Both the position numbers and the translations under genes were made by a program. From Granulicella sp. 5B5 (GTDB taxonomy: Bacteria > Acidobacteriota > Terriglobia > Terriglobales > Acidobacteriaceae), in NCBI RefSeq assembly GCF_014083945.1, contig NZ_CP046444.1:3038001-3102000 (forward strand): a DNA stretch of 64,000 nucleotides, given 5' to 3'. Under the pieces are notes generated by a model. The model searched no databases. It was given only the letters and a program-made list of their open reading frames with translations, and had not been told where the DNA came from. Of this stretch, positions 7,314 through 29,571 are shown in pieces. Position 1 is the first letter of the stretch; each line of letters begins with the position of its first letter.

Positions 7314-7333
7314 GAGCAGATGCGGCGCTGGTA

Positions 7334-7780: not shown

Positions 7781-7793
7781 GGGAGCACAGCGG

Positions 7794-13269: not shown

Positions 13270-13545
13270 GGATACCCCTCCCCCCTCCCTATGTAGCGGA
13301 GGTATCTAGCAGAATCAGCGACTTACGGGGTGATCCCGAGGGTAAGTGGCTGATTCTGTATATGGTTACGGGTATGATATGGGAAATAAAGGGGATAGTG
13401 GGTAGAGGATAGAGCGAGCTGGGGCGGGTTTGCTGCTTCAGTTGCCAGTTTGCCAGTTACCCAGTGAACCAGTTCTTTCCCTAGTTTCAGTATAGAAGGT
13501 GGAGATGGGGAAAGTGTTTTTGGTTTGTGGGTGTAAGTGGATTGG
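13270..13545 (-). repeat. Dispersed repeat A, copy 2 (inverted)
   Basis: Reverse-complement counterpart of 2070-2350, starting right after the stop codon of the matrixin-like gene. The core holds a nearly perfect hairpin (13311-13326 against 13342-13357, one mismatch). The order of blocks is the same as in copy 1, with small insertions and deletions. Confidence 0.85.
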
Positions 13546-13591
13546 ATTGTTCGGTTTGCATGGTGGAGGCAGGGTTGGGTGGTTGACAGCA

Positions 13592-13632
13592 AAAAAGGCG
13601 ACGGCAGCCGGGTGGGCTGCCGTCGCCTTTTT
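13592..13632. terminator. Bidirectional terminator between convergent genes
   Basis: A perfect 18-bp stem (aaaaaggcgacggcagcc and its complement) with a 5-base loop, flanked by A-run and T-run, so it can end transcripts on either strand. It lies between the matrixin-like gene with repeat A and the convergent sugar transporter gene, whose stop is at 13650. Confidence 0.93.
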
Positions 13633-13649
13633 ATCAGGATTGAAGTTGG

Positions 13650-15005
13650 TTAGTAAGGCTCGACGGGGAGGAGGGAGTCGCGGGCCGGAGGGCGCTTGAT
13701 GGATGCGATGCCGTAGGAGGCGATGTAGACATAGCAGAGGGCCGGGATGACGAAGGCGTGGTGGAGACCGATCTTGTCGGCGAGGAAACCGGTGAGCTCG
13801 GGGATGATCGCTCCGCCGAGGATGGCGGCGATGAGCAGGCTGGAGCCCTTGCTGGTGAGCGGGCCGAGGTCCTGGATGCCGAGCGTGAAGATGGACGGGA
13901 ACATGATGGAGTTGCAGAAGCCGACGAAGAGCAGAGCGAACATCGCAACATGGCCGAAGGTGAGGATGGAGGTGACCGTCAGCAGGAAGGCGCAGATGGC
14001 AGCGGTGCCAAGCACGGGGCCGGTGCGGACCTTCTGGAGGACGCCGGAGCCGATGAAGCGGCCGGTCATCGCGCCACCCCAGTAGACCATGAGGTAGTTG
14101 GCGGCGACCTTTTCAGGCAGAGCGCCGATGTTGGAGAGGCCCATGTAGTTGACGAGGAGGCTGCCGATGGCGACCTCCGCACCGACGTAGGTGAAGATGC
14201 CGAGGGCGCCGAAGAGGAGCCAGGGGTGGCGCCAGATGGTGTCGGGCTTGGAGAGAGCTTCGGCGAAGGCGCCGGGGCGGAAGTCCTGGGTGAGATCGGT
14301 CTGGCCGGTCTGCGGCTTGAGCTTGATGACGGCCAGCGCGATGGCGAGCAGGACGAGCGTGACCGTGATGACGATGTAAGGCAGCGTGACGGTGTGGGCC
14401 TGGACCTGGCGGTACTCCTGCAACGCGGCGGCGGAGAGGGAGTGCATCTTGTCGGGCGAGAGCTGGGTGGCTCCGCCGAGGATGAGGAGGCCGCCGATGA
14501 ACGGCGCGATGAAGGTGCCGAAGGAGTTGAAGGCCTGCGCGAGGTTGAGGCGGCTGGCCGCGCCCGCTGCTGGACCGATGACGGTAACGTAGGGGTTCAC
14601 GGCGACCTGGACGATGGTCATTCCGGCGGCGAGGACGATGAGCGCGCCGAGGAAGACAGGGAAGAGCGCGAGATAGGCCGCGGGCAGGAAGCCGCAGGCC
14701 CCGGCTGCCATGACGAGCAGGCCGATGACCATGGCCTTCTTGTAACCGACCTTCTCCACGAGCTTGCCACCGGGGTAGCTGAAGATGAAGTAGGAGGAGA
14801 AGAAGGCAAACTGCACGAGAAGCACTTCGGCGTAGTTGAGCTCGAAGATGGACTTGAGGTGCGGGATGACGATGTCGTTGAGGCAGGTGAGGAAGCCGAC
14901 CATGAAGAAGAGCGCGGTGGCTACGGACATCGCGCGGGTGTCGGTCTTGATGGTCGAGTCGGCCATGTAGCCGGGGGCGCTTACGTTGCGAACGGGAACG
15001 GCCAA
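13650..15005 (-). CDS. FucP/GluP-type sugar:H+ symporter (MFS)
   Basis: A 451-residue major facilitator protein with about twelve hydrophobic segments. The N-terminal region (FFMVGFLTCLNDIVIPHLK, about 33-51) and 'VNPYVTVIGP' with 'LNLAQAFNSFGTFIAP' are typical of the FucP/GluP/HexT group, which imports fucose, glucose or galactose with protons. The substrate cannot be read from the sequence. No fucose catabolic gene is adjacent; the gal operon is 13 kb away. Upstream on the same strand is a truncated secreted protein. Confidence 0.88.
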   Translation of the reverse strand: MAVPVRNVSAPGYMADSTIKTDTRAMSVATALFFMVGFLTCLNDIVIPHLKSIFELNYAEVLLVQFAFFSSYFIFSYPGGKLVEKVGYKKAMVIGLLVMAAGACGFLPAAYLALFPVFLGALIVLAAGMTIVQVAVNPYVTVIGPAAGAASRLNLAQAFNSFGTFIAPFIGGLLILGGATQLSPDKMHSLSAAALQEYRQVQAHTVTLPYIVITVTLVLLAIALAVIKLKPQTGQTDLTQDFRPGAFAEALSKPDTIWRHPWLLFGALGIFTYVGAEVAIGSLLVNYMGLSNIGALPEKVAANYLMVYWGGAMTGRFIGSGVLQKVRTGPVLGTAAICAFLLTVTSILTFGHVAMFALLFVGFCNSIMFPSIFTLGIQDLGPLTSKGSSLLIAAILGGAIIPELTGFLADKIGLHHAFVIPALCYVYIASYGIASIKRPPARDSLLPVEPY

Positions 15006-15095
15006 GTGATGCTCCTTCGGAAAAAGCCTACGGTATCAGAATACGTGTTGTTTTGGCGTGGAGCGAGTGGCGGGTTTCAATGGGGGATTGGGGGG

Positions 15096-15476
15096 CTAAA
15101 GTGCTGCTGTGCTGGAACGTCCGGGGTACGCTCGCGCCTTTGGCGCATCGCTGCGGCAGACGCAGGTCTCTCCACTACGGCGCAAACGCGCGCCTCCGGT
15201 CGAGATGACACATCTGAGGGAGTACAAAGCGTTGTCGAGAGGATGGTTGCCGCTGGTGGCATGGGGGAACTCGAGGACGGCGTAGGGCTGGCCGCCAGCG
15301 TAGGAGGCGCGCGTCATGACGTCGAGACGGAGGGCGTCGATGCGGAGAGTGAGCTGCGGGCTGGTGAGTTGGATTCCGCTGGAGGTGTGAGCGTTGGCGG
15401 GGAGTTGTGCGGCTAAGGGAAGAGCGGCGGCGAGGACAAACGTTTGTAGCGAGAGGCGGAGCGAACGATGTGACAT
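15096..15476 (-). CDS. Truncated secreted protein ending in a dispersed repeat
   Basis: A 126-residue frame with a good signal peptide (ending 'QLPANA') and about 60 residues of ordinary-looking sequence. The last ~38 residues are translated from repeat B (15123-15216), as seen from the Arg/Ser/Cys-rich end 'CVCRSDAPKARAYPG'. It is therefore probably the N-terminal stump of a longer exported protein, perhaps a glycoside hydrolase given the sugar transporter beside it, but the family is not recognisable. Whether it is still expressed is unknown. Confidence 0.5.
   Translation of the reverse strand: MSHRSLRLSLQTFVLAAALPLAAQLPANAHTSSGIQLTSPQLTLRIDALRLDVMTRASYAGGQPYAVLEFPHATSGNHPLDNALYSLRCVISTGGARLRRSGETCVCRSDAPKARAYPGRSSTAAL
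15123..15216 (-). repeat. Dispersed repeat B
   Basis: The reverse complement reads 'cagatgtgtcatctcgaccg', then 'ggagagacctgcgtctgccg', then 'gcgccaaaggcgcgagcgta'. The same succession occurs on the plus strand at 59537-59640, and its last module recurs at 27340-27375 (minus) and 61813-61845 (plus). Confidence 0.85.
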
Positions 15477-15541
15477 AGCCCCATCATGGTATCTCGCGTT
15501 TGACTCGTTGTGCGCGGCACCTCATTCATTGTGGACGCAGA

Positions 15542-16531
15542 CTATTTGAGGAACTGGGTGGTATAGCCAAGTGTGGGGTCGATGGGTTGTTTGATGACGC
15601 CGAGGGAGTAGAGCTGGTCGGCGGTGGTCTTCCAGCGAGCTGGATCGAACTGGCCGATATGCGCGCCCGTGGTGTCGTCGCCGGTGACGAAGTTTCCGGA
15701 CTTGAGGGTCTTGTAGCTGTACTCGGCCCAATCGGGGCTCATGGCGGGGTTGAGCTTTTCGATGAGGGCGTTAGCGGGGCCGGGGTCGCGCATGTACTCC
15801 TGCCAGCCGTGGATGGAGGCGCGGACGAACCTGGCGACGATGTCAGGGTGTTGTTTTGCGTAGTCCGCGGAGGTGAAGAAGACGCGGTAGGGGTCGTAGC
15901 CAGCGTCGCGATTGAGCAGCATGCGTGCGGGGGCGCCACCCTTGTTGGCGAAGTAGGGCTCGGAGGTGAGGAAGCCCTGCTGGATGTAGTTGGGGTCCTG
16001 AATGAAGCTGGCTACGGAGAAGGTTGCGGGGACCTCGTGGACGTTATTGAGGTGGTACTTGTGCACGAGGAACTCCCACCAGGTTGAGCCGGGTTTTACG
16101 GCGATGGTATGGCCGTTGAGATCGGTCCAGGTGTGCACGGGTGAGTTCTGGTGGAGGAGTATTCCCTGGGGGTCGTGCTGCATGGTGGCGCCAATCGCGA
16201 TGATGGGCTCGTGTGAGTTGGCGATCGCTTCGAGGATGTGGTCGGATGATTGCATTCCGAACTGGATCTTGCCGCTGGCGATCAGGGCGTCGGTGGAGGT
16301 GTATGGCCCGCCGGGGAGGATGGTGACGTCGAGGCCTTCGGCTTTGTAGTAGCCCTTGACCAGCGCCGTGTAGAAGCCGCCGTGCTCAGGCTGAGGATAC
16401 CAGTCGGTCTGGAAGGCGACGGGAGTGAGGCCGGAGATGTCAGTTTGTTTGTGGCAGCCGGCAAGGCAGAATGCGAGAAACGCGAAGAGGGCGAGCCTGG
16501 TTCCGTAGCGGTGTGCAGGGTGGGAGCTCAT
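15542..16531 (-). CDS. ABC transporter substrate-binding lipoprotein (NMT1/THI5-like)
   Basis: A 329-residue periplasmic binding protein with a lipobox (CLAGC, lipidated Cys26). The segment 'TDWYPQPEHGGFYTA' (about 42-56) and 'KGYYKAEGLDVTI' match the NMT1/THI5-like group, whose members bind pyrimidines, riboflavin, taurine, sulfonates or nitrate. No other binding protein is in the cluster, so it most likely feeds the ATPase and permease at 22383-23941, although it lies on the other strand. It is 30 bp downstream of the amidase and probably co-transcribed with it. Confidence 0.88.
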   Translation of the reverse strand: MSSHPAHRYGTRLALFAFLAFCLAGCHKQTDISGLTPVAFQTDWYPQPEHGGFYTALVKGYYKAEGLDVTILPGGPYTSTDALIASGKIQFGMQSSDHILEAIANSHEPIIAIGATMQHDPQGILLHQNSPVHTWTDLNGHTIAVKPGSTWWEFLVHKYHLNNVHEVPATFSVASFIQDPNYIQQGFLTSEPYFANKGGAPARMLLNRDAGYDPYRVFFTSADYAKQHPDIVARFVRASIHGWQEYMRDPGPANALIEKLNPAMSPDWAEYSYKTLKSGNFVTGDDTTGAHIGQFDPARWKTTADQLYSLGVIKQPIDPTLGYTTQFLK

Positions 16532-16561
16532 GCTTGCAGCGTAGCAAACTTTTTGCGTGGC

Positions 16562-17836
16562 CTAGAGAGCGAAGGCCGGTAGATTCGCGCTGAGGGCGAG
16601 GAGTTCTGCATCGTGGCCTATGGGAGCGACGAGCTGCATGCCGCCGGGAAGCGTGACTACGGGCAGGCCGCAGAGGCTGATGGGGACGGTGTAGCGGAGG
16701 ATGCGGGTGCGGGTTTGAGTGTGGTCGTCTGCTGCGAGCAAGGCTTGCATGGGCGCACAGGGTAGCAGCAGGTAATCAAAATGTTTGAAGAGAGCGTTGG
16801 CCGTGGCGCGGAAGAGTTGCAGGCGTGCGCGAAGGGATGCGATTTCATCGTTCGATATGGATGCACCCCAGGTAAGGCGCTCGGCGATCATGGGTTCGAA
16901 GTGAAGGAAGTAGCCGCGGTGCAGAGCTGCGGCTTCGCTGGCCTGGATGGGGGCGAAGATATCGATGGCGTCGTGCCAGGGTGCCGCGTCAAAGCGTTCG
17001 AGTGTGGTCCCTTGTTGGGCGAGCAGCGATTGCCAGCGATCGAGTCCGGCGAGGATGGCTGGCTCAGCGTCGTGGAGGAAAGCCTCGCCGGGTATGCCGA
17101 TGCGCAGTGATGCGAGTGACGGCGCTGTGGCAAAAGGGAGATCGAAGAGAGCGTTGCCGAGGAGTGGGCCGTCGGAGAGATTGCGGTAGAGCCAGCCGAG
17201 GGTATCAAAGGAGGCGGCGAGGTGTGCGCCTCCGCGCCACAGAGCCGCAGTGTTGAGCGAGAGCGACGAGCGGTAGCCGCAGAGTCCACAGAGAGCGGCT
17301 GGAACCCTGATGGAGCCGCCGGTGTCGGTGCCGATGGCGGCGAGTGCGGAGCCTTCCTGCACGCTGGCTGCGGCTCCGCTGGAAGAGCCACCGGTGAGGC
17401 GTGCGGGGTCGTCTGGTTGGAGGCAATCGCCGAAGTCGCGGCTCTGGCCGGTGATGCCGTAGGCAAGTTGGTGCAGGTGTGTCTTGCCGGTGATGATCGC
17501 TCCGGCAGAACGGAGCCTTGCCGCGACAGCAGAATCAGTCGGAGCGATGCCGTGGTGTTCGCGGTAGAAGAGCGAGCCGCATGAGGTTGGAAAGCCGGCC
17601 AGGTCGAAGCAGTCTTTTAGCGAGATGGGGATGCCCCAGAGTGGTTGGGTGTCGATGTCTTCGTGGCGGAGATTTGCGGCCTGCTCGCGCGACCATGCGG
17701 CGTTCTGCGCGAGGTAGACGTTGTGGCCTGCGTTGCTGTTGGCATGTTGGAGCACGCGCCCGAGCTCAGTGATGGGATCGGTAGTGTTGTTGCGGTAATG
17801 CTCGCGAAGCGAAGTGATGCTAATGCCGGAAGACAT
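16562..17836 (-). CDS. Amidase (amidase-signature family, AtzE-like)
   Basis: A 424-residue amide hydrolase of the Ser-cisSer-Lys class. The Lys is in 'ISLKDCF' (Lys74), the cis-Ser in 'GGSSSG' (149-154) and the nucleophile in 'DTGGSIRVPA' (Ser175). The length and N-terminal layout fit the AtzE/1-carboxybiuret-hydrolase and oxalurate-type group better than GatA, and the AtzH-like gene at 24775 supports that. No AtzG-like small subunit was found. It is divergent from the deaminase at 17861 with only 24 bp between them. The substrate is unknown. Confidence 0.85.
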   Translation of the reverse strand: MSSGISITSLREHYRNNTTDPITELGRVLQHANSNAGHNVYLAQNAAWSREQAANLRHEDIDTQPLWGIPISLKDCFDLAGFPTSCGSLFYREHHGIAPTDSAVAARLRSAGAIITGKTHLHQLAYGITGQSRDFGDCLQPDDPARLTGGSSSGAAASVQEGSALAAIGTDTGGSIRVPAALCGLCGYRSSLSLNTAALWRGGAHLAASFDTLGWLYRNLSDGPLLGNALFDLPFATAPSLASLRIGIPGEAFLHDAEPAILAGLDRWQSLLAQQGTTLERFDAAPWHDAIDIFAPIQASEAAALHRGYFLHFEPMIAERLTWGASISNDEIASLRARLQLFRATANALFKHFDYLLLPCAPMQALLAADDHTQTRTRILRYTVPISLCGLPVVTLPGGMQLVAPIGHDAELLALSANLPAFAL

Positions 17837-17860
17837 GCGGCGATTGTAACGGTGGTGCCG

Positions 17861-18448
17861 ATGAGTTCGCGAGAGGAAGCTTATTTGGAAAACGCTCGCA
17901 ACGTGCTAACGTCGAGTATGGCTCTGAAAGCACCTAAACCCTTGCGTGGAGCCGCCCTGGATGCAGAGCGGATGCGTGGGCTTGTGGCATGGACCGCACG
18001 CACTCTGGAGACGGAAAATCCTGTGCCGTTTGGTGCTGAGATTGTGCACACGAAGACAGGCGAGCGGTTGATGCGTGCGACGAATGCCGTGCGCCAGGAG
18101 AATGACCCAAGCTCACACGCGGAGTTGCGCACGGTGCGGCTGGCATGCAAAAAGCTGAAGGGGTTTTCTCTGAAGGGACACACCATGTATACGACGTGCG
18201 AGCCTTGCCCGATGTGCATGGCCAACGCGTTGTGGGCCGGGTTGGATCGCGTGGTCTATGGGACAACGATTGCCGATGCGAACTGCTTCTGCAACCAGAT
18301 TCAGATACCGGCGACCGAGGTTGCACAACGCAGCGATATGAAGTGCGAGGTGGTTGGACCGGTGGAGCAGGGGCTGTGTCTTACACTGTTCACACATCCC
18401 AATATGCAACGTGCGTTCCGGACATGGAGCAGCCGCAAGAGGAAGTAG
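17861..18448 (+). CDS. Nucleobase/nucleoside deaminase (CDA superfamily)
   Basis: A 195-residue zinc hydrolase from the ATG at 17861; a start at 17918 (176 aa) is possible. The zinc and catalytic motifs are 'SSHAE' (His86, Glu88) and 'TTCEPCPMC' (Cys116, Cys119), as in guanine deaminase GuaD and tRNA adenosine deaminase TadA. The long N-terminus and the catabolic neighbours argue for a free base or related aminated heterocycle rather than tRNA. It opens the plus-strand operon running to 24785. The exact substrate is inferred only. Confidence 0.82.
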   Translation: MSSREEAYLENARNVLTSSMALKAPKPLRGAALDAERMRGLVAWTARTLETENPVPFGAEIVHTKTGERLMRATNAVRQENDPSSHAELRTVRLACKKLKGFSLKGHTMYTTCEPCPMCMANALWAGLDRVVYGTTIADANCFCNQIQIPATEVAQRSDMKCEVVGPVEQGLCLTLFTHPNMQRAFRTWSSRKRK

Positions 18449-18497
18449 AAACAGCGCAGAGGGTAATGCGCGGCGCAGCATAAGACAGGAGCCTTCG

Positions 18498-19868
18498 ATG
18501 AGTGATCTCGCCGCAGGAATGGAACAGGTCTTAGGCGATGGGTCGCGGGTGCTTACGCAGCCCCAGATGGTGGAGCGGCTGTCGAAGGATTTTTACTGGT
18601 ACTCACCTGTACTGAAGGCGATGCTGGATAACAAGCGCGCGGATGTGGTGGTGCAGCCGGTGAACGTGGAGGAGATCCGTGCGGTGTTGCAGTACTGCCA
18701 TGCGCATGAGGTGCCGGTGACGGTGCGCGGTGCGGGCACGGGGAACTATGGGCAGGCGATTCCGTTGAACGGTGGCGTTGTGCTTGACCTTCAGCGGATG
18801 GACAAGATTGAGGCGATTGGTGAGGACGGTGTCGCGGTATGCGAACCGGGCGTACGGCTTGGAGTGCTAGAGACGAGCGCGCGAGAAGTGGGGTGGGAGC
18901 TGCGGTGTTATCCCTCGACCGTAGCGAAGGCATCGCTGGGTGGGTTCCTGGGTGGAGGTTCCGGGGGCGTCGGTTCAGTGAAACATGGCGGGTTGCGCGA
19001 CTTCGAGACCGTGCGCGCGATTGAAGTTGTGACGATGGAGTCTGAGCCGCGTGTTGTGAAGCATGAGGGGCAGGCTGTGCATGAGATTCTGCACGCATGG
19101 GGCACCAATGGCGTCATCACCAGGATTTGGTTTGCGCTGGCGCCGGCGGTGGCGTGGTCGCAGGTGGTGCTCACATTTAAGAGCTTCGATGAGGCGTTTA
19201 ATTTTAGTGAGCGCATTGCGACCGATGCGACCTGGGATAAGCGGTTGATTACGGTTTTCGAGTGGCCGTTGCCGTCGTATTTCGGCCCAGTGAAGCAGCT
19301 TGTTCGTGAGGGTGAGGCCTCGGTGTTTTTTCTGATTGCAGATGCGCAGATGGACACCTTGCGGGAGGTTGCAGATGAAGCTGGTGCTGCAGTGATGCTG
19401 GCCCAACCGTATGCGGGGCTGCGGTCGCAGCCACTGCTTTCGGACTACACGTGGAACCACACGACGCTGTGGGCGATGAAGGCCGATCCGACGTACACGT
19501 ATCTGCAGTGCGGCTTCAGTCCTGAACGCGCGCGGGAGCAGTTTGCACTACTGAAGAGCAGATATGGCGAGGATTTCCTGCTGCATATCGAGTGGATGAA
19601 GAATGGCCAGGGTGTCATGATTCCGGGGGCGATACCGGTGGTGCGCTTCAGTACGGAGGAGCGATTGAACGAGATGATCGACTACTGTCGCGAGATTGGT
19701 GTATTCGTCGCAAACCCACATGTGAACCATGTGGAAGGCGGTGGGCGATATCGCGAGGACAATGTGCAGTTACAGGCGAAGTACAAATATGACGCAAAGG
19801 GATTGATGAACCCTGGGAAGATGGCGAGCTTTGCGCGGCGGCAAGCCCTTGAGGAGCAGCCGGCATGA
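18498..19868 (+). CDS. FAD-binding oxidoreductase (PCMH-type, GlcD-like)
   Basis: A 456-residue flavoprotein with AGGAG seven bases before the ATG at 18498. The FAD-binding loop 'VRGAGTGNYGQ' (76-86) and 'GGGSGGVGS' belong to the PCMH FAD-binding fold (FAD_binding_4). The C-terminal part ends 'KGLMNPGKM', a usual signature of glycolate/lactate-type and related oxidases. It probably oxidises the ring or a hydroxy-acid intermediate of the cluster pathway. Its end overlaps the creatininase-family start by 4 bases, so translation is coupled. Confidence 0.85.
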   Translation: MSDLAAGMEQVLGDGSRVLTQPQMVERLSKDFYWYSPVLKAMLDNKRADVVVQPVNVEEIRAVLQYCHAHEVPVTVRGAGTGNYGQAIPLNGGVVLDLQRMDKIEAIGEDGVAVCEPGVRLGVLETSAREVGWELRCYPSTVAKASLGGFLGGGSGGVGSVKHGGLRDFETVRAIEVVTMESEPRVVKHEGQAVHEILHAWGTNGVITRIWFALAPAVAWSQVVLTFKSFDEAFNFSERIATDATWDKRLITVFEWPLPSYFGPVKQLVREGEASVFFLIADAQMDTLREVADEAGAAVMLAQPYAGLRSQPLLSDYTWNHTTLWAMKADPTYTYLQCGFSPERAREQFALLKSRYGEDFLLHIEWMKNGQGVMIPGAIPVVRFSTEERLNEMIDYCREIGVFVANPHVNHVEGGGRYREDNVQLQAKYKYDAKGLMNPGKMASFARRQALEEQPA

Positions 19869-20659
19869 AGACGTGGATTCCCGATGCACGCAAGTTCGCG
19901 TATCTGACCTGGAAGCAAGTGGAGGCTCTACCGAAGGACAAGACGCTGCTGGTGCTGCCGACTGGTGCGATCGAGCAGCACGGGCATCATCTGCCTTTGG
20001 CGACAGATACCTTGACAAGCAATCTGTTGCTGGGGCGTGCGCTGCAGTTGTTGCCGGCGGACGCTCCTATCTATGCCCTGGAGACGATCTGCTATGGGAA
20101 GAGCAATGAGCACATCGGGTTTCCGGGTACGATGACTCTCTCTGCAGCGACATACATGGCGGTGCTGCGAGATATTGGGGCGAGCGTGGCGGCGGCAGGA
20201 ATCAAGAAGCTGCTGCTGTTCAATACGCATGGAGGGAACTCCTCGCTGAATGATGTGATGGCGCGCGATCTGCGTGCGGAGTTTGGATTGCGGACGTTCC
20301 ATATGAGCGGTGGCGCTGGCGCTAAAGCGGAGGGGTTGAGTCCGCAAGAGGCCAAGTATGGGTTCCATGCGGGTGAGGTGGAGACCGCGTGGTTGCTGGC
20401 GGCGACTCCGGAGCTCGTGAAGACGGATGCGTATACGACGAACTACATTGCGCGGATCGAAGAGAACAATGTGCTGTCGCCTGAGAACGGCGCGGTGAAC
20501 TTTGCATGGCTTACGCGAGACATCTCGCCGAGCGGTGTGCTGGGTGATCCGCGGCCGGCGACGGCTGAGAATGGCGAGCGCTGGATTGCAGCCTGCGCAG
20601 AGAAGGCTGCAGCCGCGTTGATGGCCGCCTATGAATATGAGAACCACTACAAGCCTTAA
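19865..20659 (+). CDS. Creatininase-family amidohydrolase
   Basis: A 264-residue metal-dependent cyclic-amide hydrolase. The metal-ligand motifs are 'PTGAIEQHGHHLP' (Glu37, His39, with Asp48 following), 'NTHGGN' (120-125) and 'HAGEVETA' (168-175), all intact. Family members open creatinine, cleave formamidopyrimidines in deazaflavin and riboflavin synthesis, or process mycofactocin. Beside a deaminase and an amidase, ring opening of an N-heterocycle is the likeliest role. Its ATG overlaps the previous stop. Confidence 0.9.
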   Translation: MKTWIPDARKFAYLTWKQVEALPKDKTLLVLPTGAIEQHGHHLPLATDTLTSNLLLGRALQLLPADAPIYALETICYGKSNEHIGFPGTMTLSAATYMAVLRDIGASVAAAGIKKLLLFNTHGGNSSLNDVMARDLRAEFGLRTFHMSGGAGAKAEGLSPQEAKYGFHAGEVETAWLLAATPELVKTDAYTTNYIARIEENNVLSPENGAVNFAWLTRDISPSGVLGDPRPATAENGERWIAACAEKAAAALMAAYEYENHYKP

Positions 20660-20673
20660 CGACGTATGAGGAT

Positions 20674-22386
20674 TTGAGCGAATTGGCGGGAACGAATCTA
20701 TTGGTGGACTGCGGCGATGGCGTGATGCTGGAGCGAGGCGTCGCGTGCCGCTTGCAGGACGGCACTGTCCTGCGCTCAGACCATTACTATCCGCCAGGCG
20801 GAGGGAAGCAGCCGACGCTGTTGATGCGGCAACCGTATGGGCGGGATATTGCGTCAACGGTGGTGTACGCTCACCCGATCTGGTTCGCGCGTCGAGGATA
20901 TAACGTCGTGATTCAGGATGTTCGTGGGCGCGGTGGGTCGGAGGGGGAGTTCTATCCGTTTCGCAATGAGGGGCGTGATGGCGCAGAGACCATTGCGTGG
21001 CTGCGTATGCGGCCTGAGTGCAATGGGCGTGTGGGGATGTATGGCTTCTCGTACCAAGGGATGACGCAACTGCTAGCTGCCGCAGAGCAGCCGGAGGGGT
21101 TGGAGTGCATTGCGCCAGCGATGACTGCGTGCGATCTCTATGCGGGGTGGTTCTATCACAATGGGGCGCTGCGGTTGGCGTCTTCGCTGGGGTGGGGCGT
21201 GCAGATGCTGAAGGAAGATGCTGTGCGGCGCGGGTTGCACGAAGGACGGGCGAAGCTCGAAGCAGCGTGGACGAACCTGCGTGCTCAAACATGGTTCATG
21301 CCGTATGGTGAGCATCCTGTGATTACAGATCCGGAGCTGCCGTCGTATGTGCGCGACTGGTTCGAACACGATGTGCCGGGAGAGTACTGGAGCTCGATGG
21401 ATGTGAGTGCGCGCGCAAGTGACATCCGCGTGCCTGCATTGCATGTTTCGGGTTGGTATGACACGTATCTGCAGGGCAGCGTGCTTGGATTTGAACTGCT
21501 GCGGACTCAGGCAGGCTCGAACCATGCGCGGGACAACCAATACCTGCTGGCGGGGCCGTGGGTGCATATTCCGTGGGGTGACCGTGTAGGGGAGTGTGAT
21601 CTTGGTGCTGAGGCGCGGTTGGATACGGACGAGTTGCTGCTGCGCTGGTTCGACCATTGGCTGAAAGACGCAGATACGTTTGCGAACGAGCCGAAGGTGC
21701 GCCACTTTGCGATGGGGGTGAACCGGTGGCTCGCGGCTGACGATTGGCGTGGAGATGCGACGATGAGCTTATATCTGCACAGTGGTGGGCGAGCCGAGTC
21801 GCGAAAGGGAGACGGTGGGCTTTCGACGGTGAAGGCTGCGGATGAGCCTTCTGACATTTTCGTGTATGACCCGGAGGTGCCGGTGATGTCTCCGGGAGGC
21901 GCGCAGGGTGTGAGCGGGCCAACAGATCAGGCCGTGCTGGAGATGGGAAACAATCTGCTGGTTTATACGGGGGAACCGCTTGGAGACGCGCTGCATGTTT
22001 TCGGCGCGCCGAAGGTGACGCTGTATGCTGCGACGTCGGCGAGCCATGCGGATTTTGTTGCCAAGCTGGTGCGCGTGCTGCCGGGTGGACGTGCGGAGTT
22101 TGTCTGCATGGGCATTGCACGTTCCAGCGCGTTGTTTGGGGATGAGTATCAAGCCGATTCGGTGCATGTGTGGGAGTTTGAGCTTGAGCCTACCTCAACG
22201 GTGTTTGCCGTGGGAGAACGGGTGCGACTTGAAATCGCCGGTTGTGCATTTCCGCTTTACGATCGCAGTTCTTCCAACGAGACTAAGCCGAGGGACATGA
22301 CTCCATTTAATTGGGGGCGGTCGACGCATTGTGTATTTCACGACGAGGCGCGGCCTTCGAGGCTTTCATTGCAGGTGATTGCATGA
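20674..22386 (+). CDS. CocE/NonD-family hydrolase (peptidase S15 fold)
   Basis: A 570-residue alpha/beta hydrolase with a TTG start at 20674 and GAGGA just upstream. The nucleophile elbow is 'GFSYQG' (Ser126), preceded by 'DVRGRGGSEG'. Asp in 'SGWYDTY' and His in 'GPWVHIPWG' complete the triad. The C-terminal third is the jelly-roll domain of X-Pro dipeptidyl peptidase and cocaine esterase. It should cleave an ester or amide of the imported compound. It overlaps the ABC ATPase start by 4 bases. Confidence 0.88.
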   Translation: MSELAGTNLLVDCGDGVMLERGVACRLQDGTVLRSDHYYPPGGGKQPTLLMRQPYGRDIASTVVYAHPIWFARRGYNVVIQDVRGRGGSEGEFYPFRNEGRDGAETIAWLRMRPECNGRVGMYGFSYQGMTQLLAAAEQPEGLECIAPAMTACDLYAGWFYHNGALRLASSLGWGVQMLKEDAVRRGLHEGRAKLEAAWTNLRAQTWFMPYGEHPVITDPELPSYVRDWFEHDVPGEYWSSMDVSARASDIRVPALHVSGWYDTYLQGSVLGFELLRTQAGSNHARDNQYLLAGPWVHIPWGDRVGECDLGAEARLDTDELLLRWFDHWLKDADTFANEPKVRHFAMGVNRWLAADDWRGDATMSLYLHSGGRAESRKGDGGLSTVKAADEPSDIFVYDPEVPVMSPGGAQGVSGPTDQAVLEMGNNLLVYTGEPLGDALHVFGAPKVTLYAATSASHADFVAKLVRVLPGGRAEFVCMGIARSSALFGDEYQADSVHVWEFELEPTSTVFAVGERVRLEIAGCAFPLYDRSSSNETKPRDMTPFNWGRSTHCVFHDEARPSRLSLQVIA

Positions 22387-23150
22387 CCACTGTGCCTGAG
22401 ATTTTGTTTCGCGGTGTGGGGAAGCGGTTCGCGGCCAAGACGGCACCGGTGCTCGAGGGTATCGACCTTTCGATTGAACGGGGAGAGTTTGTGTCGATTG
22501 TCGGTCCTTCGGGTTGCGGGAAGTCGACGCTGTTGAAGATGGTCGCCGGATTGACATCGTGTACGACTGGGCAGATCGAGATCAACGGGATGGAGCCTAA
22601 GAACGCGCGCGAGATTGTTTCGTTCGTGTTTCAGGATGCGACGCTGCTGCCGTGGCGGACGGTGGAGCGCAATGTTGCGTTATCGCTGGAGCTGGAAGGA
22701 CGTACGAGGGATGAGACGTCGGCGACGGTGGCACAGCTGCTGGAACTGGTGGGGCTATCTGAGGTGGGCAAGAGTTACCCTCGGGAGCTCTCGGGTGGTA
22801 TGAAGATGCGGGTGTCGATTGCGCGTGCGTTGGCAACGCAGCCGCGTGTGCTGTTGATGGATGAGCCCTTCGCCGCGCTGGATGAGATGACTCGCGACCG
22901 AATGAATGAAGAGCTGTTGCGGTTGCGCGAAGAGAAGAACTGGACGGTGTTGTTTGTCACGCACTCGGTTGCGGAGGCTGTGTTTCTGTCGTCGCGGGTG
23001 ATTGTGCTGGCGCCTTATCCGGGCCGTGTAGCAAACGAAGTCGCGATTGATTTGCCGTATCCGCGCACGGCAGAGACGCGCGAGAGCGCGGATTTCGATA
23101 CCCTGGTAAACAGGACTTCGAAGCTGTTGCGGGAGGTCCACCGGGGATGA
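22383..23150 (+). CDS. ABC transporter ATP-binding protein (SsuB/TauB/ThiZ type)
   Basis: A 255-residue ATPase starting at the ATG overlapping the previous stop (ATGA). Walker A is 'GPSGCGKST' (41-49), the signature is 'LSGGMKMRVSIARA' and Walker B is 'VLLMDEPFAALD'. The group energises import of nitrate, taurine, sulfonates or pyrimidines. It is paired with the permease at 23147 and probably with the binding protein at 15542. Confidence 0.94.
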   Translation: MTTVPEILFRGVGKRFAAKTAPVLEGIDLSIERGEFVSIVGPSGCGKSTLLKMVAGLTSCTTGQIEINGMEPKNAREIVSFVFQDATLLPWRTVERNVALSLELEGRTRDETSATVAQLLELVGLSEVGKSYPRELSGGMKMRVSIARALATQPRVLLMDEPFAALDEMTRDRMNEELLRLREEKNWTVLFVTHSVAEAVFLSSRVIVLAPYPGRVANEVAIDLPYPRTAETRESADFDTLVNRTSKLLREVHRG

Positions 23151-23941
23151 AGAACAAGCTGAAGCTGCTTATGAACAGCGTAGCCGTCTTCGGGGCGTTG
23201 CTTCTGCTATGGCAGAGCGTTATCTGGATATTCAGCGTGCCGAGTTATATGCTGCCTACGCCGTGGAAGGTGGCGCAGGTGTTTGCGGCACGGCTGCCAG
23301 ATCTGTGGGCGTCGACACTTCTCTCGGCGGAGGCGGCTGTTGGAGGTTTGCTGGCTAGTATTGCTGTAGGAGTGCTGGTGGCATTGATCTTTGCACGCTC
23401 GCGGTCGATACGAACGCTGCTTTATCCGTACACAATTTTGCTACAGACGGTGCCGATCGTCGCAATCGCACCGCTGATTCTGATGTGGGTGGGGCAAGGG
23501 TTGCTTTCGGTGGGAGTGGTGACGTTCATCATCTGCCTGGCGCCTATCATTGCGAATACGACGCAGGGGCTTATCAGTGTTGACGACAACCTTGTGCAGC
23601 TGTTTTTGATGCACAATGCTACGCAAGGCCAGATTTTGCGTAAGCTGCGATTGCCACATGCGTTGCCCTATTTGTTTGTGGGGGTAAGAATCTCAAGTGG
23701 CATTGCTGTGATCGGAGCGATTACAGGTGAACTGTTTGCTGGATCGGGCCAGGTAGGGCGGGGTGGGATTGGCTATTCGATCCTGTATGCGCAGACCCAG
23801 GTCCAGACTGACTACCTATTTGCGCTGGTGATCGCTGCTACGTTGCTAGGCTTCTCGTTGTTTTTTGCCGTCATGTTTTTTGAGTGGTTGGCGCTGCACA
23901 AGTGGCATGAGTCGGCGCTGGAAAGCCGCGCTGAAGCTTAG
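23147..23941 (+). CDS. ABC transporter permease (SsuC/TauC/ThiX type)
   Basis: A 264-residue inner-membrane subunit with about six hydrophobic segments of the BPD_transp_1 family. The coupling loop includes 'NATQGQILRKLRLPHALPYLF' (about residues 150-170), the usual EAA-type contact with the ATPase. It overlaps the ATPase gene by 4 bases. DUF3891 follows 22 bases later. Confidence 0.93.
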   Translation: MKNKLKLLMNSVAVFGALLLLWQSVIWIFSVPSYMLPTPWKVAQVFAARLPDLWASTLLSAEAAVGGLLASIAVGVLVALIFARSRSIRTLLYPYTILLQTVPIVAIAPLILMWVGQGLLSVGVVTFIICLAPIIANTTQGLISVDDNLVQLFLMHNATQGQILRKLRLPHALPYLFVGVRISSGIAVIGAITGELFAGSGQVGRGGIGYSILYAQTQVQTDYLFALVIAATLLGFSLFFAVMFFEWLALHKWHESALESRAEA

Positions 23942-23963
23942 TGCGGGAAGAAAGGGAAGTTAC

Positions 23964-24785
23964 GTGCTTCGGCTTGAGACTGACAAAGGATGGTTGTTGG
24001 TAACGCACCCTGATCACGCGCACCTTGCGGGTGAGTTTGCGTCGCAATGGGGCAATGAGATGTTTGCTCCTCCGGAGCCGCGGGAGCACGTGCTGCGCGG
24101 GGTTTATCGGCATGACGATGGCTGGCGAGGGCGCGATATTCAGCCGGCGGTGACACAGCAGGGCAAACCGGCAGCTTTCTCGGCTGAACTTGTGGGGGCT
24201 TATTCTGCCTTTGAGGAGATCGATCTTGCGGCGTATCTAGCGGTGCGGCGCGAAGCCGTGCAACTGATCGCACAGGAAGACGCCTATGCCGCGATTTTGA
24301 TTTCGATGCACACACACGATTTGCTTTCGGAACGGGCTGACCGCAGCACGATTCGGCCGGAGCAGTTGCCGTGGCTGGATGCGTTTCTAGTGGAGCAGAT
24401 GTCGTTGCAACGTGCTTTGCTGGAGCAGCTTCAAGAGGCTGGGACGATTGCGGCGGAGGCATTTACTGCGGAGACGTTCCAGCGGAACTTTCAACTGCTG
24501 CAGGCTTGTGACAATCTCTCGCTGCTGAGTTGCGTAGACTTTGGCGGTGAAGCGACGTTACTGCACCCGCTGGCGTTGCGTAACGGTGGCACCAGTGAAG
24601 TGCGCGTTGAGCGCACCGGAGAGCGCGCTTTTCGGTTGACGCCGTACCCGCTGGCCTCTTCTAAGCTGGTGTTTGGGTTGAAGGCCCGGTTTGTCGAAGG
24701 CAAGAGGTTTGCCGATGCCGCGCAGTTGAAGTCGCTGCTGGATGAGGCGCCGTTTCAGCAGCTGGATGTGACGATTACAGCTTAG
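23964..24785 (+). CDS. DUF3891 family protein
   Basis: A 273-residue soluble protein. The GTG at 23964 is chosen because AGGGAAG precedes it by a few bases and the N-terminus 'MLRLETDKGWLLVTHPDHA' then aligns with the usual start of the family. Conserved His and Asp residues ('HPDHAHLAGEFA', 'YRHDDGW', 'HTHDLL') suggest a metal-dependent or HD-like helical fold; the function is unknown. It is last in the plus-strand catabolic operon, and its stop overlaps the convergent AtzH-like gene by 11 bases. Confidence 0.82.
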   Translation: MLRLETDKGWLLVTHPDHAHLAGEFASQWGNEMFAPPEPREHVLRGVYRHDDGWRGRDIQPAVTQQGKPAAFSAELVGAYSAFEEIDLAAYLAVRREAVQLIAQEDAYAAILISMHTHDLLSERADRSTIRPEQLPWLDAFLVEQMSLQRALLEQLQEAGTIAAEAFTAETFQRNFQLLQACDNLSLLSCVDFGGEATLLHPLALRNGGTSEVRVERTGERAFRLTPYPLASSKLVFGLKARFVEGKRFADAAQLKSLLDEAPFQQLDVTITA

Positions 24786-25167
24786 ACATCGGCAGCGTCG
24801 AGACGTGTGCGGAGACGATGCGCCATCCTTCTGGCATACGCACCCAGACCTGGCTCTGCCGGCCACGGACCTTGCCGGCAGCGGTATCGCGTTCGAATTC
24901 GAGGGTGATGCTGCCGAAGTCGGTGCCAAAGGACGTTATCTCAAGCCTGATTGTGCGGCGTTCAAGGTTCACGGCTGGACGCGATTTGCGAAAGGCCTCG
25001 ATCTCGTCTGTGCCATAGAGGTTCTCGCCTGCGCCGAAACGAATGGCGTGTGGCGAGTCCCAGAACATCGCGGTGAGTGTTGCGACGTCGTTGTGGATGA
25101 GCGCGTTTTCGTAGCGAGGATAGAGGTCTCGGAGTTCCGCAATGATAGCTGGGTCGTTGATCTTCAT
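24775..25167 (-). CDS. AtzH/HpxZ-like protein (DUF3225, NTF2 fold)
   Basis: A 130-residue small protein starting at the ATG at 25167. AGGAG overlaps the stop codon of the formamidase gene just upstream, so translation is probably coupled. The pattern 'FWDSPHAIRFGAGENLYG' and 'GRQSQVWVRMPEGWRIVSAHVS' is typical of DUF3225. Known members AtzH and HpxZ accompany AtzE-type amidases in cyanurate and oxalurate breakdown. Here the candidate amidase partner is at 16562. Confidence 0.82.
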   Translation of the reverse strand: MKINDPAIIAELRDLYPRYENALIHNDVATLTAMFWDSPHAIRFGAGENLYGTDEIEAFRKSRPAVNLERRTIRLEITSFGTDFGSITLEFERDTAAGKVRGRQSQVWVRMPEGWRIVSAHVSTLPMSKL

Positions 25168-25174
25168 GCGGCTC

Positions 25175-26112
25175 CTAGTGGATGGGGAAGAGTTTGCGTG
25201 GCGGCAGGATGGACTTGGCAATCGCCGCGGAGACGGTGATCATGGGTTCGTTGACGACCTGGCTGATTTGAAGCTTCATGGCGACGCTGCAGAGCAGGTA
25301 GGCATGGACCGGGTCGAAGGACCAGCGAGAGGCGAGCAGGTCGACCATGCGATCGGTGGCGTTGAGGGCTGCGGTGAGCGCGTCGGGGTGGGATTCGACG
25401 ACGAGCCAGGAGTGGCCGTGCTCGTCGGAGGGAGCGGATTCGATGAGCGGCGCGGAGAGTGACTGATTCTTGTGCAGCGTAAAGCGGAGGGTGGCGTCGG
25501 CAGGGCACTCGATGCCGTTGATGCAGACCTCGCCGTCGCCTTGCGCGGCGTGGGCGTCGCCGCAGGAGAATAAAGCGCCGGGTTGCTGGACGGGCAGGTA
25601 GAGTGTGGCGCCGGTAGCGAGTTCGCGGACATCCATGTTGCCGCCGAAGATGCCGGGAGGGCGGGTTCGGAACTCACCGGGTTCGGCTGGAGCGACGCCC
25701 ATGACTCCGCAGAAGGGACGTAAAGGTACGATCGCGGGTTCGAGGGAGTGCGTGGTCGCGTGGTCGAGATGCCAGTGGAAGAGGAATGGTTCGGAGAAGC
25801 GCTGTTTGAGAAAGCCGAGGCCAGGGATGACGCTGGACCAGCCCCAACCCTTATGTTTCACCTCAAGAACATCAATCTGGAGAACGTCTCCGGGGCGGCG
25901 CCCTGGATGGCGACGGGGCCGGTGAGCGCGTGGATGAGGGTGCGGTCGATGTTCTGGAAACCTTCGGCGGTCATGCCGGGGTGGACCTGCGCACCGCTGG
26001 CGTCGACGCATTCAAAGTGGACGGTGTCGCCGGGAGAGATGGTGAGGCGCGGAGGCAGGGCGGCGTTCCAGCGGGAGTGCGTGGGAGTGGCAGAGAGGTT
26101 ATGTTCGGCCAT
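25175..26112 (-). pseudogene. Acetamidase/formamidase, interrupted by one frameshift
   Basis: Family FmdA/AmdA. The first ~75 codons run from the ATG at 26112 in one frame ('HSRWNAALPPRLTISPGDTV', 'GPVAIQGAAP'). The rest, from 'GDVLQIDVLEVKHKGWGW' to the stop at 25175, is in another frame. The two join smoothly if one base is added at the run of four G (plus strand) at 25892-25895, giving about 312 residues, the normal family length. The rest of the frame is intact, so this may be a sequencing error in a homopolymer or a recent mutation. The enzyme would release ammonia from formamide or acetamide. It lies 2 bp after the RidA gene. Confidence 0.85.
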
Positions 26113-26114
26113 GG

Positions 26115-26576
26115 TCAGATCTCCACCGTCATCTGGAGTTCGACGAGAGCATGGCGCGGTAGACCGCTTACGCCGATGGCTGCGCGGACGTGTCGGCCGG
26201 GTTCACCGAAGATCGCGAGGAAGAGGTCGGAGGCGCCGTTGATTACTTTAGGTGAGTCCGCGAATCCAGGCACCGAGTTTACATAACCGTTGACGGTGAT
26301 GATGCCGCGGATCTTTTCGAGCGAACCGAGGTGGGATTCAAGGACGGCGAGCTGGAGTAACGCGCAGCTGCGGGCGGCGGCGTAGCCTTCCTCGATGTTG
26401 CGGTCGAGGCCCAGGGTGCCGGTGATGATGCCGTCGGGTGTCTGCGAGATGACTCCGGCGAGATACACAATGTTACCCGCGGTCTTCGCGGACATGTAGT
26501 TGCCGCCGGGTGCGGGTGGCGGAGGGAGTGTAAGGCCAAGGTGTTCGAGTGCTGTGCGCGGGTTCGTCGGTGGCAT
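26115..26576 (-). CDS. RidA/YjgF/YER057c-family protein
   Basis: A 153-residue protein of the Rid superfamily. The trimer-forming fold is recognisable from 'NIVYLAGVISQTPDG', 'NIEEGYAAARSCALLQLAVL' and the C-terminal 'VRAAIGVSGLPRHALVELQM', where the Arg corresponds to the ligand-binding residue of RidA. Rid proteins hydrolyse reactive enamines and imines; RutC does so in pyrimidine breakdown. It is the first gene of the ridA-formamidase-atzH-like operon and is divergent from the DUF2165 gene. Confidence 0.88.
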   Translation of the reverse strand: MPPTNPRTALEHLGLTLPPPPAPGGNYMSAKTAGNIVYLAGVISQTPDGIITGTLGLDRNIEEGYAAARSCALLQLAVLESHLGSLEKIRGIITVNGYVNSVPGFADSPKVINGASDLFLAIFGEPGRHVRAAIGVSGLPRHALVELQMTVEI

Positions 26577-26659: not shown

Positions 26660-27151
26660 ATGAATATGGCGCGGCTCGCCAAGGTGCTGCTGCTGGCGGC
26701 AATGGCGTTCTTCTTTACGCTGGTTGTGCTGAACAACACGACGGACTTCGACTCGAACTATCAGTTTGTGCGCCATGTGCTGATGATGGATTCGACGTTT
26801 CCGGGCAACCATGGGATGTGGCGGGCGGTGTCGGCGCCCTGGGTGCACCTGGCGTTTTATTGCAGCATCATCGCGTGGGAGACGCTGAATGCGGTGCTGT
26901 GCTGGTGGGGAGCGGTCTCGCTACTGCGTGCGTTGCGTGCGCCGGTGGTGGAGTTTCAACGGGCGAAGAGAGTCGGCATCGCTGCGCTGACGGCGGGGAT
27001 GCTGCTGTGGTTTGTGGCCTTCCTTTCGGTGGGCGCGGAGTGGTTTCTGATGTGGCAGTCGAAGCTGTGGAATGGGCAGGATGCGGCGTTTCGCATGTTT
27101 GCCTGCGAAGGCATCGTGCTGGTGATTCTGTTGCTGGGTGAGGCGGACTAG
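26660..27151 (+). CDS. DUF2165 small integral membrane protein
   Basis: A 163-residue protein with four hydrophobic segments. AGGAGG lies nine bases before the ATG. The conserved 'NNTTDFDSNYQFVRHVLMMD' (about 25-44) and the Trp-rich second half match the DUF2165 family of unknown function. Standing alone between the catabolic cluster and the gal operon, it gives no clue to its role. Confidence 0.88.
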   Translation: MNMARLAKVLLLAAMAFFFTLVVLNNTTDFDSNYQFVRHVLMMDSTFPGNHGMWRAVSAPWVHLAFYCSIIAWETLNAVLCWWGAVSLLRALRAPVVEFQRAKRVGIAALTAGMLLWFVAFLSVGAEWFLMWQSKLWNGQDAAFRMFACEGIVLVILLLGEAD

Positions 27152-27546: not shown

Positions 27547-28521
27547 CTATGCTTTGGGGTGCAGTTGCTGGTGCCAGGCCCAGGCGCTGGCGATGATGTC
27601 GTCGAGTTCGGGGTGCTTCGGGTTCCAGCCGAGGTTCTGCTTGGCCTGCTCGGAGCTGGCGACGAGGCGCGCCGGATCGCCGGGGCGGCGGTCCTTGATC
27701 TCGACGGGGATGGGGTGGCCGGTGACGCGGCGCGCGGATTCGACAACCTGCTTGACGGAGAAGCCGCTGCCGTTGCCGAGGTTGTAGATCATCTTGTCCT
27801 GGTGCTCGAGGGCCCGCAGGGCGAGGATGTGGGCGTCGGCGAGGTCGGCGACGTGGATGTAGTCGCGGATGCAGGTGCCGTCGGGCGTGTCGTAGTCGTC
27901 GCCGAAGATGAAGATCTTTTCGCGGCGGCCGAGGGCGACATCGAGGATGAGCGGGATGATGTGGGACTCGGGCTCGTGCGCTTCACCGCGATGAGGAAGA
28001 GCACCGGCGACGTTGAAATAGCGCAGGGCCGCGTAACGCAGACCATGGAGCTGGTTGAACCAGCGAAGCATGTGCTCGACGAGGAGCTTGGATTCTCCGT
28101 AGGGGTTGGTGGGAGCGAGGTCGGCGGTTTCGAGGATAGGTGTGGACTTGGGCTCGCCGTAGACGGCGGCGGTGGAAGAGAAGACGATCCTGTTGGTGCC
28201 GGTGGCTAACATGGCTTCCAGCAATGCGAGCGTGGAGGCGGTGTTGTTGCGGAAGTAGACCTCGGGGACCCGCATGGAGTCGCCAGCTTCGATGAGCGCG
28301 GCGAAGTGCAGGACGCCGTCGGGCTTGAGGTCGCGCAGGAGGGACTCGACGCGGGGGCGGTCCGCGATGTCGGCTTCGACGAAGTCGGCGCCAGCGGGGA
28401 CCTCATGGCGTTTGGCGTGGCAGAGGTTGTCGAGGATGGTGACCTTGTGGCCAGCCTGCATGAGGATGGTGGACACGGTGCCGCCGACGTAGCCGGCGCC
28501 TCCGGTTACAAGAACGTTCAT
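27547..28521 (-). CDS. galE: UDP-glucose 4-epimerase
   Basis: A 324-residue short-chain dehydrogenase-type epimerase interconverting UDP-galactose and UDP-glucose. The NAD-binding motif 'TGGAGYVGG' is at 6-14, the catalytic Ser/Thr region is 'SSTAAVYGEP' and the YxxxK is 'YGESK'. 'GTCIRDYIHVADLADAH' is typical of GalE. It is third in galK-galT-galE, three bases after the galT stop. Confidence 0.96.
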   Translation of the reverse strand: MNVLVTGGAGYVGGTVSTILMQAGHKVTILDNLCHAKRHEVPAGADFVEADIADRPRVESLLRDLKPDGVLHFAALIEAGDSMRVPEVYFRNNTASTLALLEAMLATGTNRIVFSSTAAVYGEPKSTPILETADLAPTNPYGESKLLVEHMLRWFNQLHGLRYAALRYFNVAGALPHRGEAHEPESHIIPLILDVALGRREKIFIFGDDYDTPDGTCIRDYIHVADLADAHILALRALEHQDKMIYNLGNGSGFSVKQVVESARRVTGHPIPVEIKDRRPGDPARLVASSEQAKQNLGWNPKHPELDDIIASAWAWHQQLHPKA

Positions 28522-28524
28522 GAG

Positions 28525-29571
28525 TTACTCCTTGCTGGAAGAGACTGCAGTTCGAAGTGTAGCTGCCGCGGATTCAGGCGTGATGTCGCGTTGGGGTGAG
28601 CCCAGCAACTCAAAGCCGACCATAAATTTGCGGACCGTCGCAGAGCGGAGGAGTGGTGGGTAGAAGTGCAGGTGCATAAGCCACTCCGGATGCGGTTCTC
28701 CGTCGCAGGGTGCGGAGTGGAGGCCCATGGAGTACGGGAAGGGCGTATCGAAGACGCGGTTATAGCCGGCAGTGACCTGCTTGAGGATCGCGGCGAGGCC
28801 GTCGCGCTGGGCGGGGCTGAGGGTGTCGACGGAGGCTGCGTACTGCTTTGGCAGCAGCATGAGCTCAAAGGGCCAGACGGCCCAGAAGGGCACGAGCGCG
28901 ACCCAGGTGTCGTTTTCGACGACGATGCGCTCGGCCTGCTTGAGTTCGAGCGCGAGGTAGTCGGCGAGCAGCGGCTTGTTGTGCGCGGCGAAGTACTCCT
29001 GTTGAGACAAGAGTTCGAGGGCAGGCTCGTTGGGGATGTGTTCGGTTGCCCAGATCTGTCCGTGCGGGTGCGGGTTGCTTGCTCCCATCATGGCGCCACG
29101 GTTCTCAAAGATCTGGACGTAGCGGATGGCGGGGTCGGCACCGAGTTCTGCGGCCTGTTCTGCCCACATCTCGATGACGCGGCGCACTGCCGGCAGCTCC
29201 ATGGTGGCGAGGGTGAGGTCGTGGCGGGGATCGAAGCAGAGGACACGACAGATGCCGCGTTCGGTTTGTGCCTTGAGCAGGCCTGCGTTATCGGTGTCGA
29301 GTGAGGCGCTGACGACGTCGGGTTTGAGTGCGGCGAAGTCGTTTTCGAAGACGAAGGTGCCGGTGTATTGCGGGGTGTGATGTCCGCCTGCACGCGTGTT
29401 GCCGGGACAGAGATAGCAGGTTGGGTCGTAAGCCAGGGCGGCGGGTTTGACTGTGTCTTCGGTCTGTCCCTGCCAAGGGCGCTGCGTGCGGTGCGGTGAG
29501 ACGAGCACCCACTCGCGTTTGAGGGCGTTCCAGCGGCGATGAGGGGACTGGAGAAAAGCGTTGTCCATCAT
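28525..29571 (-). CDS. galT: Galactose-1-phosphate uridylyltransferase
   Basis: A 348-residue HIT-superfamily enzyme exchanging UMP between UDP-glucose and galactose-1-phosphate. The active-site motif is '[11 protein letters not shown]', where the second His of HPH is the nucleophile. A 'CYLCPG' pair and the family N-terminus '[16 protein letters not shown]' are present. The start overlaps the galK stop (ATGA). Confidence 0.96.

Follow-up and report, generated by a model that had tools for sequence, protein, structure and literature searches.

A conserved gene cluster of Granulicella sp. 5B5 and other Acidobacteria that may serve pteridine uptake and ring breakdown

Nearly every organism makes pterins and folates and releases them when it dies; the genes for opening of the pteridine ring are poorly known. 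Biochemical work of the 1960s led from isoxanthopterin via tetraoxopteridine to xanthine-8-carboxylate, and hence to xanthine and urate. A flavin oxygenase of solved structure (PDB 6v42/6v43) is described in the PDB title of 6v42 as "involved in folate catabolism". Rhizobium proteins of this type are about 67% identical to 6v42, and 6v42-like genes on plasmids of Rhizobium, Agrobacterium, Klebsiella and Sulfitobacter are clustered with genes for a creatininase, an NMT1-type ATP-binding cassette (ABC) importer, an amidohydrolase deaminase and RidA, often together with an NAD(P)H oxidoreductase. In Variovorax sp. F1, folic acid degradation by carboxypeptidase G and a pterin deaminase ends at deaminopteroate and no ring cleavage was described (PMC9513972). 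Here we analysed a window of 64,000 nucleotides (positions 3,038,001 to 3,102,000 of NZ_CP046444.1) from the single-contig genome (3.93 Mb) of Granulicella sp. 5B5, which among named organisms is closest to Granulicella and other Acidobacteriaceae. The window contains a cluster of about 13 genes which, judged from homology, we lean towards reading as a system for the uptake of pteridines (pterin/folate) and the breakdown of their ring as a nitrogen source, feeding purine and ureide catabolism. The genes are as follows (window positions):

15542-16531, minus strand: NMT1/THI5-type substrate-binding lipoprotein of an ABC importer (LAGC lipobox; Pfam NMT1, 123.6 bits)
16562-17836, minus strand: amidase-signature hydrolase (Pfam Amidase, 201.5 bits)
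17918-18448, plus strand: zinc deaminase of the cytidine deaminase (CDA) fold, guanine/guanosine-deaminase-like (HAE and PCxxC motifs)
18501-19868, plus strand: flavin adenine dinucleotide (FAD) enzyme of the VAO/PCMH fold (FAD_binding_4), relative of 6v42
19865-20659, plus strand: creatininase-family metal hydrolase (Pfam, 235 bits)
20674-22386, plus strand: S15, CocE/NonD-family serine hydrolase (TIGR00976, 389.9 bits, cut-off 66.3)
22389-23150, plus strand: ABC importer ATPase, nitrate/taurine/sulfonate type
23147-23941, plus strand: ABC importer permease (BPD_transp_1)
23964-24785, plus strand: DUF3891 protein (Pfam DUF3891, 149 bits)
24775-25167, minus strand: AtzH/HpxZ-like SnoaL-fold protein (Pfam AtzH-like, 172 bits; the open reading frame (ORF) opens at 25221, the likely start is 25167)
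25175-26112, minus strand: acetamidase/formamidase-family gene (FmdA_AmdA), frameshifted and lying in two frames
26115-26576, minus strand: RidA-superfamily protein, YjgF_endoribonc subgroup (PF14588, 62.8 bits)
26660-27151, plus strand: DUF2165 small membrane protein (PF09933, 204.6 bits)

The FAD enzyme was used as query in a GTDB-wide scan, and the surroundings of the loci were fetched. This gave 80 loci, all from Acidobacteriota and Verrucomicrobiota apart from one contig labelled Rhodanobacteraceae. Seven genes (deaminase, FAD enzyme, creatininase, S15, ATPase, permease and DUF3891) were taken as the core, and their order and strand were kept in 72 of the 72 GTDB loci with at least five of them. 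The contig labelled Rhodanobacteraceae (CAJCHN010000108.1) carries a cluster that shares about 60-69% identity with that of the Acidobacteria and is probably misbinned.

Co-occurrence was counted in 150 genomes of the order, the presence tests being uncorrected for phylogeny. A search of these genomes for DUF3891, followed by analysis of its surroundings, recovered the same gene set in 19 relatives; the FAD and creatininase genes were present in all 19, and S15, ATPase and permease were missing from one (L034, genome G034). The FAD gene itself was found in 21 genomes, and a close DUF3891 gene accompanied it in 20 of these versus 3 of the 129 other genomes (Fisher 1e-20). In G130, the sole FAD-positive genome without a close DUF3891 gene, the FAD gene lies less than 700 bases from the contig coordinate start. 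Among 34 Acidobacteriota loci with full flanks, where flank length keeps some of the lower counts down, the binding protein, deaminase, FAD enzyme, creatininase and DUF3891 were each present in 34, and S15, ATPase and permease each in 33, followed by AtzH (27), formamidase (26), amidase (23), RidA (16) and DUF2165 (14). The pairwise divergences of the proteins correlated with those of the FAD enzyme (r = 0.66-0.85), to which genome relatedness contributes, so that the correlation is no proof of co-function. The gene set is one evolutionary unit across many Acidobacteria and, in part, Verrucomicrobia, and the neighbourhood search thus bore out the co-occurrence in relatives on which the earlier note, made from the sequence alone, had hung its pathway.

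A second CDA-type deaminase and MerR, aldo-keto reductase and twin-arginine translocation (TAT)-linked xanthine dehydrogenase (XDH)-like genes lie near a few loci; these were left out, their presence seeming to reflect synteny among related genomes.

The only close solved relative of the FAD enzyme was 6v42/6v43 (345.7 bits, 38% identity over the full length), the next PDB sequence scoring 64.6 bits. Structural comparison with 6v42 gave a Z of 38.1 (428 residues, 36% identity), the next match being D-lactate dehydrogenase with a Z of 30.1. The relationship extends beyond this enzyme. Compared with four proteobacterial clusters of the 6v42 type, identities were 38-43% for the FAD enzyme, 35-41% for the creatininase and 33-35% for the substrate-binding protein; for ATPase and permease only the Rhizobium and Klebsiella clusters were compared, with identities of 45-54% and 35-39%, respectively (Klebsiella: 54% over 213 aa for the ATPase and 39% for the permease). 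Across the window, 6v42 and proteobacterial proteins 69 positions of the FAD enzyme were invariant, and so were the metal-site residues E37, H39, D48, H122 and E173 of the creatininase-family enzyme, proteobacterial homologues included. The functional core is common to these phyla, with the deaminase replaced by a non-homologous one. Such a recurrence is expected if deamination is a constant step. It is also our strongest argument that one kind of substrate would undergo deamination, flavin oxygenation and creatininase-type hydrolysis in succession.

One such proteobacterial cluster lies on the clinical Klebsiella pneumoniae plasmid p2B17602 (locus L144, 841-12347) and contains genes for two amidohydrolases, two NMT1 substrate-binding proteins, a creatininase, RidA and a 2-oxoglutarate (2OG)-Fe(II) oxygenase. 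The Rhizobium clusters adjoin paoABC/xdhC.

The zinc motif of the window deaminase (HAE and PCxxC) was invariant. Its PDB matches were headed by guanosine and guanine deaminases (88-93 bits; one of the top matches is named deoxycytidine deaminase), with TadA at 75 bits, and its closest relatives together with the zinc motif place it among the predicted CDA-fold guanine deaminases. This genome has a second GuaD-like gene, within a purine locus at 1235 kb, and for that reason the cluster enzyme probably acts on a compound that is guanine-like yet different from guanine. Pterins would fit, as their ring has the same 2-amino-4-oxopyrimidine part as guanine; 8-oxoguanine would fit as well.

The best PDB relatives of the substrate-binding protein were 4nmy, THI5 and ThiY (3ix1), a family that binds pyrimidine vitamin precursors. 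In 31 loci a TonB-dependent receptor gene is located within the cluster, between DUF3891 and AtzH. The only strong counterpart of this receptor in the present genome (62% identical) is encoded at 826 kb (826318-830250; 7681-11754 of the fetched locus L157), and that gene is located 2.2 Mb from the cluster, beside a gene for a LysR-type regulator. Verrucomicrobia add another TonB receptor in 12 loci. Five of their loci (L140, L124, L129, L137 and L123) have, downstream of DUF3891, a further NMT1 substrate-binding protein and a 261-aa protein, which has no Pfam or NCBIfam match and resembles an NAD(P)H/flavodoxin-type oxidoreductase. In L140 there are, in addition, genes for a two-domain GTP cyclohydrolase II-like protein and for a SIS-like protein that matches no family.

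Neighbouring genes in relatives were annotated by family matches for some genes and by reading of the translations for others. Directly before the cluster, three loci (L072, L075 and L086) carry genes for XDH, uricase, allantoate amidohydrolase, ureidoglycine aminohydrolase and ureidoglycolate amidohydrolase. Uricase and the same ureide enzymes follow the cluster in Terracidiphilus gabretensis, with allantoinase and a guanine-deaminase-like gene. Genes for adenosine deaminase, PNP and NupC adjoin it in L075 and L077, and an 8-oxoguanine-deaminase-like amidohydrolase is added in 10 loci, all of them from Verrucomicrobia. Three further loci (L076, L098 and L106) have genes of the reductive pyrimidine pathway (PreT/PreA and dihydropyrimidinase) before the cluster. 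Uricase was present in 16 of the 21 cluster-positive genomes versus 37 of the 129 cluster-negative ones (p 5e-5) and was thus absent from five cluster-positive genomes. The purine neighbours would be explained by the route from pteridines given above, because it yields xanthine and urate.

The co-occurrence, the fixed order, the correlated divergence and the purine and pyrimidine neighbours together support well the idea of the earlier note that the genes form a single pathway for an N-heterocycle with its own importer. Its terms "undescribed" and "unknown heterocycle" were only partly right, as the core has a proteobacterial counterpart and the nearest solved relative of the FAD enzyme is named for folate catabolism. 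From homology, linkage and neighbourhood we infer each of the following steps. The substrate would be imported by a TonB receptor, whose gene lies elsewhere in this genome, and by the NMT1-type ABC transporter. The deaminase would strip the pterin ring of its 2-amino group, after which the 6v42-type flavin oxygenase would oxidise the ring. Hydrolysis of a ring amide would fall to the creatininase-family enzyme. S15, the amidase, the AtzH/HpxZ-like protein, RidA and, in relatives, the formamidase may process side chains and the acyclic imine, amide and carboxy-urea products, and the acyclic products would then enter purine and ureide catabolism. The more far-reaching proposal, a complete pteridine-ring pathway of Acidobacteria and Verrucomicrobia that runs into the uricase/ureide route and includes a new, CDA-fold class of pterin deaminase and a new DUF3891 enzyme, is possible, and we are inclined to doubt it.

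Several observations weigh against pteridines as the substrate. The weakest point is the folate link, which comes from the PDB title of 6v42, and a substrate cannot be assigned from an identity of 38-43%. Folate-specific genes (carboxypeptidase G, p-aminobenzoate (pABA)-glutamate hydrolase) were not among the constant partners of the cluster, and M20 peptidases were present in only 6 loci. In the genomes the cluster is strongly associated with purine genes, and the extra deaminase of the Verrucomicrobia is closest to 8-oxoguanine deaminase, not to isoxanthopterin deaminase. In addition, one locus (L152, genome G142, 4760-19901) has a TonB receptor, DUF3891, amidase and DUF2165 beside XDH-uricase without the FAD/creatininase core, apparently a separate, purine-linked use of these four.

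The same purine genes could mean that the cluster degrades an oxidised or modified purine (8-oxoguanine, methylated guanine or xanthine), with ring opening by the flavin oxygenase in parallel to uricase. The physical linkage to XDH, uricase and ureide genes, the uricase enrichment, the guanine-deaminase-like enzyme of the cluster, the 8-oxoguanine-deaminase-like gene of the Verrucomicrobia and the adjoining adenosine deaminase, PNP and NupC genes would all suit this. However, a uricase route is already present in this genome and most relatives, this genome has its own GuaD-like gene besides, five cluster-positive genomes do without uricase, and the nearest named relative of the FAD enzyme is annotated for folate; we therefore consider a modified purine unlikely. 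The THI5/ThiY-like binding protein leads rather to a pyrimidine-type compound, such as a thiamine or hydroxymethylpyrimidine (HMP) breakdown product or a cytosine or uracil derivative, as do the PreT/PreA and dihydropyrimidinase genes and the fact that cytosine deaminases belong to the deaminase family. Yet the adjacency to pyrimidine genes is confined to three similar loci and the deaminase is nearer to guanine and guanosine deaminases. Moreover, in an Rfam scan of 10-32 kb of the window no riboswitch match reached the gathering score, thiamine pyrophosphate (TPP) included, and no TenA, YlmB, RutA or RutB family was found among the scanned cluster proteins. A pyrimidine substrate is thus quite improbable.

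Slightly more improbable still is that the cluster serves the detoxification or salvage of a larger N-heterocyclic secondary metabolite (a plant or microbial alkaloid, or an antibiotic) and not nutrient catabolism. A TonB-dependent receptor in 31 loci, a CocE/NonD hydrolase akin to cocaine esterase (257 bits) and the patchy distribution of the cluster over the 150 genomes would be in line with such a function, whereas dedicated high-affinity import and many C-N hydrolases suit consumption better, and the neighbouring genes are those of nucleobase catabolism.

The creatininase-family enzyme scored below the NCBIfam equivalog cut-offs (TIGR04448, 88 versus 235 bits; TIGR03964, 116 versus 172; NF041098, 59 versus 245) and was on these scores rejected as a creatininase sensu stricto, MftE or IolN. 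The amidase was likewise rejected as AtzE or a member of the allophanate hydrolase subfamily (AtzE, 152 versus 426 bits; AtzE/PRK09201, 162 versus 461 bits). The AtzH/HpxZ-like protein passed the NCBIfam cut-off for HpxZ (160.7 versus 135 bits). The structure of the DUF3891 protein was predicted with confidence (predicted local distance difference test (pLDDT) 92). Foldseek gave no match with this model, and the best Z in structural comparison, 7.0, was with HD domains, a Z below 8 being a value that can reflect a common arrangement. Conserved residues H18, H50-D51, H116 and D183 would suit an HD metal site. Tentatively, the model can be called HD-domain-like, and the protein is probably an enzymatic component. 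A literature search found no paper that names DUF3891 or this gene set; matches for AtzH and creatininase concerned nitrifiers and cyanurate.

A one-base frameshift near 25893-25897, which may be real or an assembly error, splits the formamidase of the window between its two frames. The gene is unbroken at this position in L062, L032, L033 and others, the closest relatives included, and is intact with a length of 310-315 aa in most relatives; the pathway in this genome may therefore be incomplete at the formamidase step. Another locus (L043, genome G143) has an independent frameshift of its own in the formamidase gene. The DUF2165 gene is linked to the cluster in many relatives. In L073 (11855-12748) and 19 other loci DUF2165 is paired with a periplasmic protein, about 300 aa long and weakly matching cytochrome c; this partner is absent beside the DUF2165 gene of the window.

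The ORF calls and family matches confirmed the gene families that the earlier note had named, at the positions listed. Its right end of the cluster, 26576, was too early, since the conserved neighbourhood reaches the DUF2165 gene. Divergent units were found as it had described; the 24-bp centre between them holds only with the most upstream deaminase ATG as start. This ORF opens at 17861, 24 bp from the amidase start codon, and the alignment of relatives begins at the ATG at 17918, which leaves approximately 81 bp between the divergent start codons; the centre is probably about 81 bp. No common box stood out there as a shared operator among the closest relatives, whose alignable sequence is mostly coding. 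The FucP-like and GalE genes of the window were excluded from the cluster, as they are linked to it in the nearest relatives only. Genes of the Leloir pathway (GalE, GalT and GalK) follow the cluster at 27547-30746.

If the pteridine reading is true, the cluster supplies candidate genes for the pteridine-ring breakdown known from the biochemistry of the 1960s, and links vitamin turnover to the scavenging of purine nitrogen. It also gives proposed functions to DUF3891, to an AtzH/HpxZ paralogue and to a class of acidobacterial TonB receptors. Since the set of about 13 genes is conserved in abundant soil and peat Acidobacteria and its core has homologues in rhizobia and Klebsiella, the question can be put to the test.

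Compared with known systems, the cluster was not assigned to the Rut pathway, as RutA/RutB-family proteins are not among its proteins, nor to ThiXYZ/HMP salvage, for want of a TPP riboswitch and of TenA/YlmB partners. With the hpx/oxalurate and atz cyanurate pathways it has in common an AtzH/HpxZ-family protein and an amidase. The amidase is non-AtzE, however, and HpxW, HpxX, AtzD, AtzF and AtzG are absent from the cluster; with the AtzE cut-offs missed and no other hpx or atz enzyme family among the scanned cluster proteins, an hpx or cyanurate pathway was rejected. The uricase-ureide pathway of Acidobacteria adjoins the cluster in several relatives and is located elsewhere in this genome; it is a separate gene set, the cluster occurring without uricase in 5 of 21 genomes. 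Variovorax sp. F1 shares with our proposal the pterin deamination step, but its pterin deaminase is similar to Agrobacterium Arad3529, whereas the window enzyme has the CDA fold (PMC9513972). The 6v42-type clusters have in common with the window a homologous FAD enzyme, creatininase and NMT1-type ABC importer, as well as a deaminase and a RidA protein. They use an amidohydrolase-superfamily deaminase where the window has one of the CDA fold, the RidA of the window belongs to another subgroup, and the NAD(P)H oxidoreductase, LysR and 2OG oxygenase of some of them are absent from the window. To this set the window adds six families: S15, amidase, DUF3891, AtzH/HpxZ, formamidase and DUF2165. Most likely, the cluster is a new form of a partly known pathway, extended by these six gene families.

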